Origin: an uncultured Gammaproteobacteria bacterium | Lineage (GTDB): Bacteria > Pseudomonadota > Gammaproteobacteria > Pseudomonadales > Pseudohongiellaceae | Assembly (NCBI GenBank): GCA_903862645.1 | Contig: CAIOZF010000182.1 | Location: 1-58,221 of the forward strand | Direction of reading: 5' to 3' | Length of the DNA: 58,221 nucleotides | In this document: positions 6,097 through 34,913 of the stretch, piece by piece | Position numbering within the stretch: position 1 is the first letter of the stretch | Layout: every line of letters begins with the position of its first letter | Made by a program: the position numbers and the translations under genes | The notes under the pieces: generated by a model | The model's input: the letters and a program-made list of their open reading frames with translations, nothing else | Database searches by the model: none | Told to the model about the DNA's origin: nothing

Positions 6097-6999
6097 TCAC
6101 TTTGCTGGCCGCGCGGCGAGCAACTCCAGCTCGATAGCCTTGAGCAGCTGTTTGAGGCTCAACGCCGGGATGTCTTCCTCGGGGAATGCGGTGGCCAGCT
6201 GGCTGCAGATTTCGGCGAAGTCCTGGTCAGCCTGAATAGCGGTCAGAAACACGGCCAGAGGTGCGCCGATAGTCTGGAATTGCATGCGGTGCTGACGCCG
6301 AAACACCAGAATATTCGCCAGCCCCTGGGGGAGTGGGCCCTGCCCGCGATCTACCTCTTCCTGGATCGCAGAATCGCTGGCAGGGGTCGATGTTGTAATT
6401 GGGTTGGTGATCAGATCGATACCAAAAGCGGTTTCACCGGGCTGGCCACCACTGTCGGTATGCGCCTGCATCTGCCGCCAGTACTTCTCCAGATCGAAGC
6501 GACTGTTCAATAGCGCCCAGTCTTTCTTTGCCTGCCAGCGCATCTGCGGCCAGTCGGTGGCGGGCAGCGCCTGCAACTGACTCAGTGTGCAGGTTTCCTC
6601 GTCGGCCAGATCGAAGAGTGCAATGAGCAGAGACTCCAGACTTACTATATCGGCCACCGCTGGCAGCGGGCGGAACTGGTCGTGCTTGCGCAGATACTCA
6701 CGCATAGATTCCCCGACCCGGTGAATCGGGCCGTTGCGGGGTGGGTATTGGCTCATGTAACCGATCCACAGCTGGGTATAGAGTTCGCGTCCCAAGGTGT
6801 TGAACAGCACGGGGAACAAGGCGCTGGACACCTCGACCAGGCGTTGATGGTAGGCGTTGTTGTAGATCGAGAGTGCTTCGGCCTGGGACAGCTGGCTGTG
6901 CGGCGCAAGCAGATCGGCTATTCGTTCGGCGTCGATGCTCAGATCCTGTGGATGACTGATCCAGTCCCAGAATTGCTCCTGTTCCTGACGCCAGCTCAT
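6097..6999 (-). CDS. bufC: bufferin cluster protein BufC (DUF2063, HvfC/BufC-type)
   Basis: A 300-residue protein whose N-terminal half matches the DUF2063 HvfC/BufC-type domain (QEQFWDWISHP, then LSIYNNAYHQRLVEVSSALFPVLFNTLG). In known clusters this protein partners the DUF692 enzyme that modifies the bufferin precursor, probably by recognising or delivering the leader. Its start overlaps the bufB stop by 4 bp. The C-terminal half (from about 200) is less conserved. It is the last gene of the bufA-bufB-bufC operon and lies just upstream of ubiB on the same strand. Confidence 0.88.
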   Translation of the reverse strand: MSWRQEQEQFWDWISHPQDLSIDAERIADLLAPHSQLSQAEALSIYNNAYHQRLVEVSSALFPVLFNTLGRELYTQLWIGYMSQYPPRNGPIHRVGESMREYLRKHDQFRPLPAVADIVSLESLLIALFDLADEETCTLSQLQALPATDWPQMRWQAKKDWALLNSRFDLEKYWRQMQAHTDSGGQPGETAFGIDLITNPITTSTPASDSAIQEEVDRGQGPLPQGLANILVFRRQHRMQFQTIGAPLAVFLTAIQADQDFAEICSQLATAFPEEDIPALSLKQLLKAIELELLAARPAK

Positions 7000-7850
7000 G
7001 GGCGCAGTCCAGCCGCCGCAGGCAGGAGAACTTCGGAGGTGGGTCGGGTGACCGATTCCTGCACAAGACGAGCCTGTTGCAACTCCGCCAGCAACTCCGG
7101 AAGCGGTGGGATGTGGTCGTCGCGCTCCAGCAGGGTGGCTACCGGGCCGAAGCGCTGGCAGGCGTAGCGATAAAGCTGCCAGACGTCATCGCAAACCGGG
7201 TGGTCATGGGTGTCGATGATGTGGGTGGTATTGTTGGTGTGGCCGGCCAGATGAAACTGCCTGATGGCAGCGGGGATCAAAGCATCGACATAGGCATATG
7301 GATTGAAACCAAGATTGAAGCCGCTGACATAGACGTTGTTGACGTCCAGCAGCACCTCGCAGCCGGTTCGACGTACCAGCGCGTTGATGAACTCCGGCTC
7401 ACTCATAGTGCTGGAGCGAAAGGCGATGTAAATCGACGGGTTCTCCAGCACGATTTTGCGCTGCAGAATGTCCTGAATCTGGTTGACCTTGTCGACACTG
7501 AGTTGCAGGTTGGCATCGGTGTAAGAGATTGGCAGCAGGTCGTGGGAAGTGAAGCCGTTGATGCCGGTCCAGCACAGGTGATCGGACACCCATTCCGGCT
7601 CGATCTCGGCGATCAGGCGTTTGAGCTGGTTGAGATAGTGAAAATCCAGGGATTCGTGGGAGCCGATATTGAATGACAGACCGTGCAGCACAACCGGGTA
7701 GCGTTCACGCACCTGGCGCAGGATAGCGCGGGGTCTGCCGCCGGGAGCGAGGTAATTTTCCGTGATCAGCTCGAACCAGTCGACGTCCGGCCAGTGGGTC
7801 AGGACGTAGTCATAATGCACACTGCGCAGACCCACCCCATAGCCAAGCAT
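6996..7850 (-). CDS. bufB: bufferin maturase BufB, DUF692 multinuclear non-heme iron oxidase
   Basis: A 284-residue TIM-barrel protein of the DUF692/MNIO family, which installs oxidative modifications on cysteines of ribosomal peptides (for example thiooxazoles or oxazolone-thioamides). The expected iron-ligand segments are all present: LHGLSFNIGS with His56, SDHLCW with His91, LENPS with Glu136, LLDVNN with Asp169, FHLAGH with His200 and His204, DTHDHP with Asp213 and His215, and LLERDD with Glu242. It follows bufA by 34 bp and overlaps bufC, so precursor, enzyme and partner form one transcription unit. The family is certain; the exact product chemistry is inferred from family members. Confidence 0.93.
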   Translation of the reverse strand: MLGYGVGLRSVHYDYVLTHWPDVDWFELITENYLAPGGRPRAILRQVRERYPVVLHGLSFNIGSHESLDFHYLNQLKRLIAEIEPEWVSDHLCWTGINGFTSHDLLPISYTDANLQLSVDKVNQIQDILQRKIVLENPSIYIAFRSSTMSEPEFINALVRRTGCEVLLDVNNVYVSGFNLGFNPYAYVDALIPAAIRQFHLAGHTNNTTHIIDTHDHPVCDDVWQLYRYACQRFGPVATLLERDDHIPPLPELLAELQQARLVQESVTRPTSEVLLPAAAGLRP

Positions 7851-19857: not shown

Positions 19858-20918
<1,061 letters not shown>

Positions 20919-30510: not shown

Positions 30511-31404
30511 GTGTTTCAATCCTGGATCAGATCAGCATTGCTGATTGCGATGACTTTCGGCTTTTTCGCCGCAGTGCCCGCTTACGCACAGAATCTGACC
30601 GTTAAAAGTGGGCTTGCGCCCACATTGCTCAGCCTCGATAGCGGTGGCTTCGGTGCCCCCCGCGACGGCTTGATCACACCCTTCTCCAACGAGTACGTCA
30701 ACAACCTCAATCTCCGCATGTTGTTCTCTCCCGCCAAAGGCTTGAATGTGCGAGCGGGTGCCTGGCGTGTCGGTATGCAGGAACAGTTTCCCGCCGCCGT
30801 AGTCATGCCGGATGCGCTGATCACGGCAAATGGTCCAAAGCTGTTCATTGATGACAGTAACTTGTATGCGGGGGTTCTCGAAGCTCCATCCATAACGAGT
30901 ACTGCCAATCCTGGTCAGCTGGCGCGCGGTGTCGATCTGAGCGCGTCTTATGTCTGGGAGTCTCCTCGCTTCGGCCAGTTCATCGTCAGTACCAAATCAA
31001 CCTACCTGTACAACACAGCAAGGGTGGATGGGTTGCTGGATGGCCCGCTGCCGCCAGCGACCGAAAATACTCTGCTGCCCAAAGGCACAGAGCTGCAGAG
31101 CAGTCTGATGCTGACCTGGCAGGTTGGTAAACACTCTGCCAGTGCCGTGACCCACTACTTCGATTCCTTCGAGGAGCTGGGCAAGCTAAATCTTGAGCAG
31201 TTGAACGAGATCGTTGGGAACATGACCACTCTCGACCTGCAATATGGCTACAATCTCAAAGCCGGCAAGGAAGGTCAGGCAGTGCTTTCGGTTGGCGTGC
31301 GCAACCTCTTCGATGCCAGGCCGGACCAGTTTCTGGAACCCCGCCCGGGTGCGATTGAACAGACAGGTCGTGTAGCTTACGGCACCATCAAATACCAGTT
31401 CTGA
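30511..31404 (+). CDS. small outer-membrane beta-barrel resembling the C-terminus of a TonB-dependent receptor
   Basis: A 297-residue protein, GTG start with AGGGG upstream, and a signal peptide that ends near PAYAQ (residue 27). The mature part has alternating beta-strand patterns and ends with GVRNLFDARPDQF followed by RVAYGTIKYQF, the terminal strands typical of TonB-dependent receptors. No TonB box, plug domain (about 150 residues in true receptors) or second half of the barrel is present, so it is about 40 percent of normal receptor length yet carries its own signal peptide. It could be an independent small porin-like barrel or a truncated receptor remnant that acquired an upstream secretion signal. 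No function is assigned. Confidence 0.6.
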   Translation: MFQSWIRSALLIAMTFGFFAAVPAYAQNLTVKSGLAPTLLSLDSGGFGAPRDGLITPFSNEYVNNLNLRMLFSPAKGLNVRAGAWRVGMQEQFPAAVVMPDALITANGPKLFIDDSNLYAGVLEAPSITSTANPGQLARGVDLSASYVWESPRFGQFIVSTKSTYLYNTARVDGLLDGPLPPATENTLLPKGTELQSSLMLTWQVGKHSASAVTHYFDSFEELGKLNLEQLNEIVGNMTTLDLQYGYNLKAGKEGQAVLSVGVRNLFDARPDQFLEPRPGAIEQTGRVAYGTIKYQF

Positions 31405-31458: not shown

Positions 31459-31647
31459 CTATTGCCCCAGTTTTGTCACCACTCGCACGATGGCTATGGT
31501 CAGTCGCCGCAGTTGTTCAGAAGTAATGATGTACGGTGGCATCACGTAGACCAGACGTCCGAACGGTCTGATCCAGACTCCCTCTGCGACTCGGCTGGCG
31601 GTCAGCGGCGCCGCCAGCGTCATGTAGCCTCCGGTCAGCGCCTTTCC
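31459..31647 (-). pseudogene. bioA: bioA remnant (adenosylmethionine-8-amino-7-oxononanoate aminotransferase), two deletions
   Basis: About 62 codons on the minus strand retain two BioA segments: GKALTGGYMTLAAPLT (the region after the PLP-lysine, at 31600-31647) and GVWIRPFGRLVYVMPPYII to the C-terminus (stop TAG at 31459-31461). In intact BioA these are about 120 residues apart, so an internal deletion joined them at VAEG/GVW. The N-terminal two thirds are also gone: the remnant begins inside the 3' end of comF, whose stop codon lies in bioA-derived DNA. It cannot encode an active enzyme. Confidence 0.85.
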
Positions 31648-32351
31648 GACAAACTGACCCGCGCCAGGCATAGCACATCGATACGGGCAATCCCTGCACG
31701 TCGTAATAGCCGCGCCAAAGTATCGACGGTCGTCATCGTAGTGACGACATCATCGACGATGGCCACATGCTGCAGAATCCCGTCCGCGCAATCACCATCC
31801 AGTGTGAAGGCATGGCGCAGATTGATGGCGCGCTTCTCTGCCGACAGCCCTTTTTGCGACGGGGTTGCGCGCGCACGACGACACGAGGTGACATCCACAG
31901 CGATGCCGCAGTGGCGACCGATGATTCTGGCCAACTCCACGCTCTGATTGAAACCGCGCTCGCGCAGACGCGAAGGGTGCAGTGGGACAGGCAGCAATCT
32001 TTGTGGTCTGCCGAGGGTGTCAAAGTAACCCTCTGCTCTTGTAGCGAGCAAATGTGCCAAGGTGCGGCCCTCGGCAAATCCTGCCTGGAACTTGAAGTGC
32101 GCAATCAGCTCACGGATTGGAAATTCATAACGAAAGACGGGGATGCAGCGATCGAAGCTGGGAGGCTCCAGCAGACATCTGCCGCAATAGCAGTGAGCCG
32201 GTGGTGTGGCCCCGAGCTCAACACCACAGCGCTGACAGGCATTTTCCGGATAAGGTAGATCTGCCAGGCATGCGGCACACAAGGCGAGGTTGTCTACCAT
32301 AGCGTCTCCGCACAATACGCATTGTTGGAAGACTGGCAAAGAATAGGTCAT
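31635..32351 (-). CDS. comF: ComF family phosphoribosyltransferase-like protein
   Basis: A 238-residue protein with an N-terminal zinc module (CVLCGDAM, CAACL, CQRC and CYCGRC) and a C-terminal phosphoribosyltransferase fold with VAIVDDVVTTMTTVD, where the usual Gly of the PRPP loop (DDVxTTGxT) is replaced by Met. ComF proteins take part in natural transformation; with pilM and pilQ broken the role is doubtful. The ATG at 32351 is chosen; the frame is open to 32489. The last residues (SLSERR-stop) are read from bioA-derived DNA in another frame, so the native end was lost by a deletion. It was probably divergent from bioB. Confidence 0.88.
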   Translation of the reverse strand: MTYSLPVFQQCVLCGDAMVDNLALCAACLADLPYPENACQRCGVELGATPPAHCYCGRCLLEPPSFDRCIPVFRYEFPIRELIAHFKFQAGFAEGRTLAHLLATRAEGYFDTLGRPQRLLPVPLHPSRLRERGFNQSVELARIIGRHCGIAVDVTSCRRARATPSQKGLSAEKRAINLRHAFTLDGDCADGILQHVAIVDDVVTTMTTVDTLARLLRRAGIARIDVLCLARVSLSERR

Positions 32352-32535
32352 AAAACATCCAATGGCAGACTTATGAGAAATAGAAAGCTGACAAGTCTTG
32401 ATGCGTTCACAGAATAAGCCCCTTTCCAGTATAGCCAAACGCCCAGGCGGCGCCCGGTTCAGCCTTTGAATTCCCCCTCTCAACAGCATAAACAGCAGGA
32501 TGTCAGCAGACCGCGCCGCCGCAGTACCACACGAA

Positions 32536-32613
32536 CATCAAGTGCTTGCGCCACATCCAGAGGAGAGTGCCGATCTCGCCCTGTTTGCGAAACTTGGTCT
32601 ACAACCCGGACAG
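32536..32613 (+). pseudogene. bioB: bioB remnant (biotin synthase C-terminal fragment)
   Basis: The frame beginning near 32500 encodes HQVLAPHPEESADLALFAKLGLQPGQ, matching the conserved BioB C-terminal motif (LLTTPNPxxDxDLxLFxKLGLxP). No radical-SAM CxxxCxxC part remains and no stop codon follows in the expected place. It is just upstream of the bioF/bioD chimera on the same strand, the normal bioB-bioF order. Confidence 0.75.
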
Positions 32614-32668
32614 TTGCACCTGCGGGATATTCCCGTCGAACTCGCCCCGATGTTCTACCCGGCACGGA

Positions 32669-32965
32669 CTTTTGTCCTTCTGCAGCAATGGCTATCTTGG
32701 GCTGGCCAATCATCGGCAGGTTCGAGCGGCTTGCAAAGAGGCAGTAGACCGGTATGGTATGGGTTGCATCAATCACGCCCTGCTGACGGCTCAGGCCATC
32801 CATCTCGACGGCGTGAGACTGGCTGGCTGGGTTGCCAATATTGCTGCCATAGAGTCTCGCCTGCATGCCCCATGCCTGGCACGAATTCCTTTCCAGAAAG
32901 CGGGAGAGTGCATGATAGAGAGGATTGCCCAGCAGCTCAGCATCGCGACTCTACTGCAAGCCTGA
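32669..32965 (+). pseudogene. in-frame bioF-bioD deletion chimera
   Basis: An open frame (from 32546, stop TGA at 32963-32965) carries two unrelated homologies. Codons 42-72 (LLSFCSNGYLGLANHRQV to DRYG) match the N-terminal region of BioF (8-amino-7-oxononanoate synthase). Codons 73-140 (GCINHALLTAQAI, then LAGWVAN) match the C-terminal region of BioD (dethiobiotin synthetase). A deletion between bioF and bioD in a bioB-F-H-C-D operon removed most of bioF, bioH, bioC and the start of bioD; the junction is near 32759. No PLP lysine, P-loop or start-proximal part is present, so neither activity is possible. Confidence 0.85.
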
Positions 32966-33119
32966 CCAGAAAATGCGCGATTGACCTCCCCTGCCATGCT
33001 CGGTAACTTAGGCCCACCGAACGGTTTTCGGTCAGCCGAAAATCACCAGCACTTCTATCGTTTTTCCAGTAGACCCCGACCGTATCCTGCAAGGGATACC
33101 CTCTTCCAGGGAGCAGACA

Positions 33120-34913
33120 GTGGCAGCGTACAAGGCACCAATCCGAGACATGCAGTTCATCCTTCATGAGGTGATGGCAGCTGAAAATCTGTTCGCGCAG
33201 ATGCCCGGAACGGTCGAAGTGACCACGGATCTGATGGACGCAATCCTTGACAGCGCGGCGCAGATGGCTGAAGAGGTGCTGGCTCCTCTCAACCGCAGCG
33301 GGGATGAGGAGGGCTGCCGCTTCGATAAAGGGGAGGTGTATACCCCGGTCGGATTCAAGGAGGCTTACCGGGCCTTTGCCCAGGGTGGGTGGATCGGGCT
33401 TTCCGGCGATGTCCAGCATGGCGGACAGGGCATGCCCAAGATGCTCGCCGTGCTGTTCGAAGAGATGATCATGGGCGCCAACTGCTCCTTCGCGCTATAT
33501 CCAATTCTGAGTGCTGGAGCAAGCCTCGCGCTGGCCCGGCACGCTTCCTCCGAACTCAAGGACGAATACCTGCCGAGGCTCTACAGCGGCGAATGGTCGG
33601 CGACAATGTGCCTGACCGAACCGCATGCCGGGACCGATCTGGGCATCATCAAGAGTCGCGCACAGCCCCAGGCGGATGGCAGTTATCGGCTGACAGGCAC
33701 CAAGATTTTCATCACCGGCGGGCAGCAGGATCTGACCCGCAATATCGTTCATCTGGTGCTGGCCAAGCTGCCTGATGCCCCGCCCGGGCCCAAGGGCATC
33801 TCATTGTTTCTGGTGCCGCGTGAATTGCCGTCCGCGCATGGCGAGCCGGCGGTTTTCAATCAGGTGACCTGCGGATCCATCGAACACAAGATGGGCATAA
33901 AAGCTTCCGCTACCTGCGTTATGAACTTCGATGGGGCGCGGGGGTATCTGGTAGGTGAGCTCAACAAAGGCCTGGCGTGCATGTTCACCATGATGAACTA
34001 CGAACGCCTGTCGATTGGTCTGCAGGGTATTGGTCTTAGCGAGAGCTCTTATCAGACCGCAGTCGCCTATGCCAGAGAGAGGTTGCAGGGGCTTGCCGCG
34101 ACCGGCGCGACGAATCCTGCCGGTCCGGCAGATCCCATCATCGTGCACCCGGATGTGCGCCGCATGTTGCTGAGTGTGCGGGCCGATGTCGAGGCCGGCC
34201 GGGCACTGGCGTTATATGTCGCCAGTCAGCTGGATTTGGCCCACTTCCATCCGGAGCCGGGCGCGCGGGCCCGGGCCGCAAACCTGGTAGCTTTGCTGAC
34301 TCCGGTGGCCAAGGCCGCCTTCTCGGACAGAGGCTTTGAATCCTGCGTGCTCGCGCAACAGGTCTTGGGTGGACATGGCTATGTGCGGGAATGGGGTCTG
34401 GAACAGAACGTCAGGGATGCCCGCATTGCCCAGATCTACGAAGGCACCAATGGCATTCAGGCGCTGGACCTTGCGGGACGCAAGGTAGTCCGGGACAGAG
34501 AGGGCTTGCTGGAAATTCTGGCCACAGAGATCACGGCATTCCTCGCACAAGAATCCAGCGCTGATGGACTGCAGGATTTTCTCAATCCACTGCGGGATGC
34601 GCTTGGAGGGCTGTCGACAACGACGCTTTGGCTCAAACAGGCTGCAGCAGGCAACCCGGACGAAATCGGTGCGGCATCTGTCCCCTATTTGCGACTGATG
34701 GTGCTGGTTCTGTATGCCTACATGTGGGCGCGCATGGCAAAGGTTGCTTTGGCGGCGTTGCAGAACGGTACGGGAGAGGCTTATTTTTACGATGCTAAGC
34801 TGAAGACAGGGCGCTTCTTCATAGCTCGCGTGCTGCCTGGGTATTCAGCCCTGATCGCAGAGATTCGGGGCGGCAGCGCCCCACTGATGGCCCTGGCAGC
34901 GGACCAGTTCTGA
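33120..34913 (+). CDS. acyl-CoA dehydrogenase
   Basis: A 597-residue FAD-dependent dehydrogenase of fatty acid beta-oxidation, GTG start with AGGGAG 7 nt upstream. It has the long architecture with an N-terminal extension and C-terminal domain typical of bacterial FadE-like enzymes. Motifs are MCLTEPHAGTDLG (FAD/substrate contact), KIFITGG, QVLGGHGYVREWG, and IYEGTNGIQALDL, where the Glu is the catalytic base. It stands alone between the biotin scar and the DUF3379/sigma pair. Chain-length preference cannot be read from sequence. Confidence 0.94.
   Translation: MAAYKAPIRDMQFILHEVMAAENLFAQMPGTVEVTTDLMDAILDSAAQMAEEVLAPLNRSGDEEGCRFDKGEVYTPVGFKEAYRAFAQGGWIGLSGDVQHGGQGMPKMLAVLFEEMIMGANCSFALYPILSAGASLALARHASSELKDEYLPRLYSGEWSATMCLTEPHAGTDLGIIKSRAQPQADGSYRLTGTKIFITGGQQDLTRNIVHLVLAKLPDAPPGPKGISLFLVPRELPSAHGEPAVFNQVTCGSIEHKMGIKASATCVMNFDGARGYLVGELNKGLACMFTMMNYERLSIGLQGIGLSESSYQTAVAYARERLQGLAATGATNPAGPADPIIVHPDVRRMLLSVRADVEAGRALALYVASQLDLAHFHPEPGARARAANLVALLTPVAKAAFSDRGFESCVLAQQVLGGHGYVREWGLEQNVRDARIAQIYEGTNGIQALDLAGRKVVRDREGLLEILATEITAFLAQESSADGLQDFLNPLRDALGGLSTTTLWLKQAAAGNPDEIGAASVPYLRLMVLVLYAYMWARMAKVALAALQNGTGEAYFYDAKLKTGRFFIARVLPGYSALIAEIRGGSAPLMALAADQF

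Follow-up and report, generated by a model that had tools for sequence, protein, structure and literature searches.

Remnants of a biotin synthesis locus on both sides of comF in a gammaproteobacterial draft genome

In Pseudomonas palmensis (L047) and in an Oleiphilus bin (L049), comF is divergent from bioB, bioF and bioD, as it is in the locus of the genus studied here. Beyond bioD in both lies an acyl-CoA dehydrogenase gene related (49 and 55% identity) to the one that forms the right flank of our locus. A survey of 1068 genomes found all four bio genes in 91.1% of Gammaproteobacteria, and the aquatic biotin auxotrophs it describes include "desthiobiotin auxotrophs" that keep bioB (PMC9561691).

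The stretch of DNA analyzed here, called the window (58,221 nucleotides), lies on contig C182 of a draft genome of 3.10 Mb in 254 contigs (G000; 95% complete, 1.3% contaminated). Elsewhere in it, pilM (window 19860-20918) is split, its N-terminal frame stopping at 20212 and the remainder running from about 20214 in another frame, by a frameshift or a consensus error; window 6996-7850 codes for a nearly full-length RiPP-modifying enzyme of the MbnB/TglH/ChrH family (Pfam 2e-104). A sequence-only reading had placed fragments of the four bio genes around comF, and NCBIfam matches, tblastn and collinearity with the close congener G013 bear out both the assignments and their coordinates. The parts of the locus are as follows.

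30511-31404, + strand: left flank, gene for a predicted outer-membrane-like (barrel-like) protein of ~300 aa; intact (tblastn, 80.6% to G013)
31459-31584, - strand: bioA 3' remnant, about aa 395-434 of G013 BioA plus the stop codon
31585-31651, - strand: remnant of the middle of bioA, aa 282-303, including GKALTGG; a 273-bp deletion joins it in frame to the 3' remnant
31635-32351, - strand: comF, full length, stop codon lost
32388-32415, + strand: putative altered bioB promoter, CTGACA-N16-CAGAAT, by consensus match only
32500-32523, + strand: bioB start codon and first 8 codons, by alignment to G013
32524-32548, + strand: bioB junction, 25 bases without counterpart in the alignment; net deletion of 855 bp
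32549-32665, + strand: bioB 3' remnant, about aa 303-346
32666-32756, + strand: bioF N-terminal remnant, aa 41-70, with a 148-bp deletion to its left and a 1471-bp deletion to its right
32757-32965, + strand: bioD 3' remnant, aa 167-246, with 36 bp deleted inside; fused in frame to bioF
33120-34913, + strand: right flank, acyl-CoA dehydrogenase gene, intact; located 3' of bioD in G013, G005, G010 and G016

The bioA tail was matched by NCBIfam models PRK07986 (1.5e-18) and TIGR00508 (2.6e-14), the bioF N-terminus by TIGR00858 (1.9e-8) and slightly better by serine palmitoyltransferase of a related PLP family (4.4e-9), and the bioD C-terminus by TIGR00347 (6.6e-6); the bioB tail was detected with G013 BioB as the tblastn query (2e-10). 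More telling than these E-values, in our judgment, is position: by alignment and tblastn, the six blocks occupy the places of the intact genes of G013 (L122), in the same order and orientation and between conserved flanks. The left-flank gene, which adjoins bioA in intact relatives with contigs long enough, codes for a protein with a weak match to a TonB-siderophore C-terminus (E 0.036) and to no Pfam family. The loss of the catalytic parts of all four enzymes, as claimed from the sequence, holds for most of each protein, but the GKALTGG motif, which we take to be the site of the PLP lysine, remains in bioA, and SNGYLGL is retained in bioF.

Comparison with the closest relatives, proposed as a check in the sequence-only reading, recovered the intact orthologues in syntenic position. 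In G013, the order is hemE, folK, the barrel-like gene, bioA with its 3' end toward the latter, and comF, followed by divergent bioB, bioF and bioD and the dehydrogenase gene. G005, G010 and the family outgroup G016 share this layout with the locus intact in full, and G009 and G011 have its parts as far as their short contigs reach. Relative to G013, and leaving out the spacers that adjoin the outer flanks, 3740 bp are missing over seven gaps: 273 bp within bioA; 942 bp from the 5' part of bioA to the comF end; a net 855 bp within bioB, split over three gaps by the aligner and with the 25 bases unplaced; 15 bp close to the end of bioB, where intact relatives also vary in length; 148 bp across the bioB-bioF border; 1471 bp reaching from bioF into bioD; and 36 bp within bioD. 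Each of the four genes carries disabling lesions. The deletion next to comF removed its stop codon, adding five codons (LSERR) before the next one. When G005 and G010 serve as references, the comF-bioA junction (gaps of 898 and 911 bp) and the bioF-bioD junction (1426 bp) map to the identical base, and the 273-bp and 36-bp gaps recur with the same size, shifted by no more than about 10 bp; the bioB part gave no clean alignment to either genome.

Upstream of bioB and on its strand, the best sigma-70-like match in all six bio-bearing relatives examined is TTGACA-N16-TAGAAT or TAAAAT, with 11 of 12 consensus bases. The aligned hexamers of G000 retain nine, the first T of both being changed, and the corresponding spacer of eight other congeners without bioB reaches at most 9/12. 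Judged by consensus, the bioB promoter of G000 therefore appears to have decayed. A BirA operator, scored against a consensus of 18 positions, had best matches of 16/18 in G016, 13 in G005, 12 in G010 and 11 in both G013 and G000; as genomes without bioB reach 12, we make no claim of an operator for G000.

The rest of the draft was searched for intact bio genes, as the sequence-only reading had also suggested, and held no second copy of bioB, bioF or bioD. BioB over the cut-off, present in 41 of the 57 genomes searched (22/36 in the family, 5/14 in the genus), was not found in G000, nor was a BATS domain. For bioF, the scar fragment was the best match, with six weaker, unrelated ones below the cut-off; for bioD, which 26 of 34 genomes carry over the cut-off, it was the only match apart from unrelated ones below it. 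The bioA search gave three aminotransferase paralogues (258, 222 and 128 bits, all below the 405-bit cut-off) and the two fragments of the scar. The biotin auxotrophy claimed for the organism accordingly stands as a prediction, made from a 95%-complete draft. The biotin carrier protein BCCP is intact, scoring over the cut-off in 19 of 19 genomes, G000 among them; biotin should thus still be needed and is presumably imported. Because bioB is lost as well, desthiobiotin should not rescue growth.

Not every biotin auxotroph uses BioY. A search for this transporter, another of the proposed checks, came out negative in G000; five of 34 genomes carry the importer. BioY-type genes (L172, L173, L174, L175) occur in G003, G001 and G007, three of the four congeners without any bio gene at the locus, as well as in G018; the remaining genomes of the genus have none, be they bio-bearing, bioD-only, G012 or G000.

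A second bio copy may have stayed unassembled, since the draft is split into 254 contigs and the birA neighborhood is missing from it altogether. birA itself was not found in G000. We rejected a real loss of this gene: with tRNA-sized matches set aside, the first ~5 kb of the query region were matchless in G000, G004, G006, G008 and G009 alike. The region is present in G011 at 92%, and in G013 and G012 it adjoins three tRNA genes close to a contig end. Its absence from five drafts and its position near tRNA genes and a contig end make a failure to assemble the stretch next to the tRNA cluster the probable cause.

We read the observed blocks, their breakpoints, the intact flanks, the promoter changes, the lack of another copy in the draft and the tree position described below as the outcome of a recent, lineage-specific pseudogenization of a working bioA/bioBFD locus, with a probability of about 0.9. 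The ancestor would have carried bioA 3' of comF on one strand and a divergent bioB-bioF-bioD followed by the acyl-CoA dehydrogenase gene. Selection for making biotin would then have lapsed, presumably since biotin could be taken up, and at least six gene-disrupting deletions, in an order that we can only infer, would have removed about 3.7 kb on the two sides of comF while sparing comF and the dehydrogenase gene. The leading T of each hexamer in the bioB promoter would have gone as well. The process would amount to repeated deletion in an unneeded pathway, bounded by genes still under selection.

The most serious rival, which we nevertheless consider very unlikely, is an assembly artefact in which fragments of an intact bio locus were wrongly brought together in the contig. 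The many contigs of the draft, the frame break of pilM if it is a consensus error, and the little drift of the remnants would be in keeping with such an error. Yet the seven gaps flank comF on both sides and none enters comF or the flanking genes except at the comF stop codon, the bioB promoter is changed as well, and the missing pieces were not found on any other contig.

At synonymous sites, G000 and G013 differ strongly (pS 0.63), and the remnants fit a loss that is young compared with the divergence of these two genomes; the loss looks recent. A stronger signal of relaxed selection (relative-rate count 30:7; branch dN about 0.14 for G000 versus 0.05 for G013) was rejected, as the tblastn alignments had overrun the junctions. 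Dropping junction-adjacent codons (bioA 304-394, bioB 297-304, bioF 71) reduced the set from 224 to 197 codons, of which 190 were countable and 185 had all four genomes. On these 185 codons, branch dN was 0.078 for G000 versus 0.045 for G013, with a bootstrap 2.5-97.5% range of the difference of -0.005 to 0.074 and 5.3% of replicates at or below zero. The relative-rate count on the remnants was 16:7 (p 0.09), and p was 0.49 when compared with the controls (95:62), among which hemE (9:2) and the barrel-like gene (26:8) are also skewed to G000; the bioD remnant showed no excess (5:6). Changes at residues that are invariant in four intact relatives are commoner in the remnants, with 6 of 95 codons affected, than in the five flanking genes, with 18 of 845 (p 0.027, Fisher test). 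Relaxed selection is thus not firmly shown, because the drift is weak, the controls lean the same way and bioD has no excess.

Still less likely than a misassembly is that the fused remnants are translated and kept, as a 70-aa BioA piece overlapping the comF end and a 168-codon frame running from the bioB start toward the dehydrogenase gene, perhaps sparing the latter from polarity. Open frames do extend over the remnants (31459-31671, 32500-33006 and 32546-32965), the bioF-bioD join is in frame, drift is weak, and all three clearly disruptive intragenic deletions (273, 855 and 36 bp) are multiples of three, for which chance gives 1 in 27. No small frameshifts occur within the remnant blocks. 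Against translation, the promoter hexamers are altered, most of each enzyme is missing, long frames are frequent by chance in a window of 56% G+C, and some invariant residues have changed. A variant in which the deletions were filtered for open frames, with BioA, BioB and BioF-BioD mini-frames translated and the scar a selected intermediate, is in our estimation highly improbable, on a par with the misassembly. We treat the frame-keeping of the three deletions as chance in a small sample; it is the sole feature that plain pseudogenization leaves unexplained.

A tree was built from the comF, hemE, barrel-like, folK and dehydrogenase proteins (present in 16, 13, 15, 14 and 12 of 16 genomes, respectively) under LG+F+G4. 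G000 clusters with G013, G011 and G009 (UFBoot 100) and then with G005 and G010 (92), all five of which are bio-bearing. G006, G004, G002 and G008 form a clade (support 100) in which only bioD is kept at the locus, and G012, G007, G003 and G001 another (support 100) with none of the four bio genes there; the union of these two clades has a support of only 61. Because G000 branches within a group of congeners that have retained the locus, its loss appears to be its own, and by parsimony the pathway would have been lost at least twice in the genus, G000 being one such loss. Least likely of all is one shared loss inherited together with the other biotin-less congeners: bioB over the cut-off is indeed missing from nine of the 14 genus genomes, G000 included, but the clustering of G000 with bio-keeping congeners speaks against it, as does the state of the other losers, which keep at the locus bioD alone or none of the four and in which tblastn found no such fragments there. 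In the family member G031 (C1:313179-314094), bioB is broken into two pieces that overlap, one of them with an internal TAG; this is possibly another loss under way or a sequence error.

In the bioD-only clade, bioD lies between comF and the acyl-CoA dehydrogenase gene (G004, L131:2436-3164; G006, L127; G008, L129; G002, L128). Its frame is fully open in G004, G006 and G008; in G002 it runs into the contig end, and another contig starts with a matching kind of piece. These four genomes, drafts of 76 to 90% completeness, yielded no bioB or bioF over the cut-off, and bioA is missing as far as the locus is concerned. Residues 8-213 of the 242 of G004 BioD align to dethiobiotin synthetase 1dts (2e-53). 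The pN/pS of bioD is 0.18-0.32 in four pairs within the clade versus 0.19-0.26 in three pairs of bio-bearing congeners, which would point to purifying selection since the loss only on the assumption that the ancestor of the clade had already shed bioA, bioB and bioF. A dethiobiotin synthase without biotin synthase would have no obvious use.

The sequence-only reading had also counted bioH and bioC among the genes lost in the scar, from a former bioB-F-H-C-D operon. Its divergence of bioB to bioD from comF, with bioA nearby, is confirmed, but the intact relatives leave no room for bioH and bioC between bioF and bioD. BioC over the cut-off occurs in 13 of 34 genomes, in none of the 14 of the genus, with or without intact bioBFD, nor in G016, which belongs to a different genus of the family; its loss thus cannot be assigned to the scar. 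BioB, BioF, BioD and BioA are present in G005, G009, G010, G011, G013 and G016 (L122-L126, L136), known for G009 and G011 from partial contigs, with no BioC over the cut-off. bioC sits between bioF and bioD wherever coordinates share one contig, and in G013, G005 and G010 bioD directly follows bioF. In G036, G037, G041, G042 and G043, from other families, bioC is preceded by a gap about as long as bioH (roughly 780-850 bp), and none was seen in G038, G039 or the family members G014, G015, G020, G021 and G022. From the lack of space between bioF and bioD, bioH would likewise have been absent already from the intact congeners, contrary to the claim that it went with the scar.

The scar is ordinary in kind; its value lies in the intermediate stage that it represents and in its placement among bio-bearing congeners. 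It captures at base level an intermediate of biotin-pathway loss, in a genus that holds intact, bioD-only and absent states side by side. Within one order, the layouts resemble stages, from bioF-(room for bioH)-bioC-bioD through bioF-bioC-bioD and bioF-bioD to a scar or a clean loss. Auxotrophy in the genus becomes directly testable, and attention is drawn to the unexplained bioD-only sister clade. A search of open-licence papers returned no title on this locus or on the bioD-only state.

Compared with the Pseudomonas-type comF/bio locus, that of G000 has its four genes as fragments, and the operon of this genus is without bioC. Pseudogenes of bacteria erode by deletion and leave fragments between intact neighbors, and the scar of G000 is alike in this respect. 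The erosion described in PMC2374718 concerns intracellular bacteria, whereas the genome of G000 is not reduced: its 3.10 Mb at 95% completeness compare with 2.6-3.8 Mb in congeners, which lends no support to the host-associated lineage suggested from the sequence. The accompanying suggestion of a nutrient-supplied lineage survives in the weak sense of external biotin, by way of the predicted auxotrophy. In having lost bioF, bioA and bioD and needing an external supply, G000 resembles the aquatic auxotrophs of PMC9561691; unlike the desthiobiotin auxotrophs described there, it has lost bioB too.
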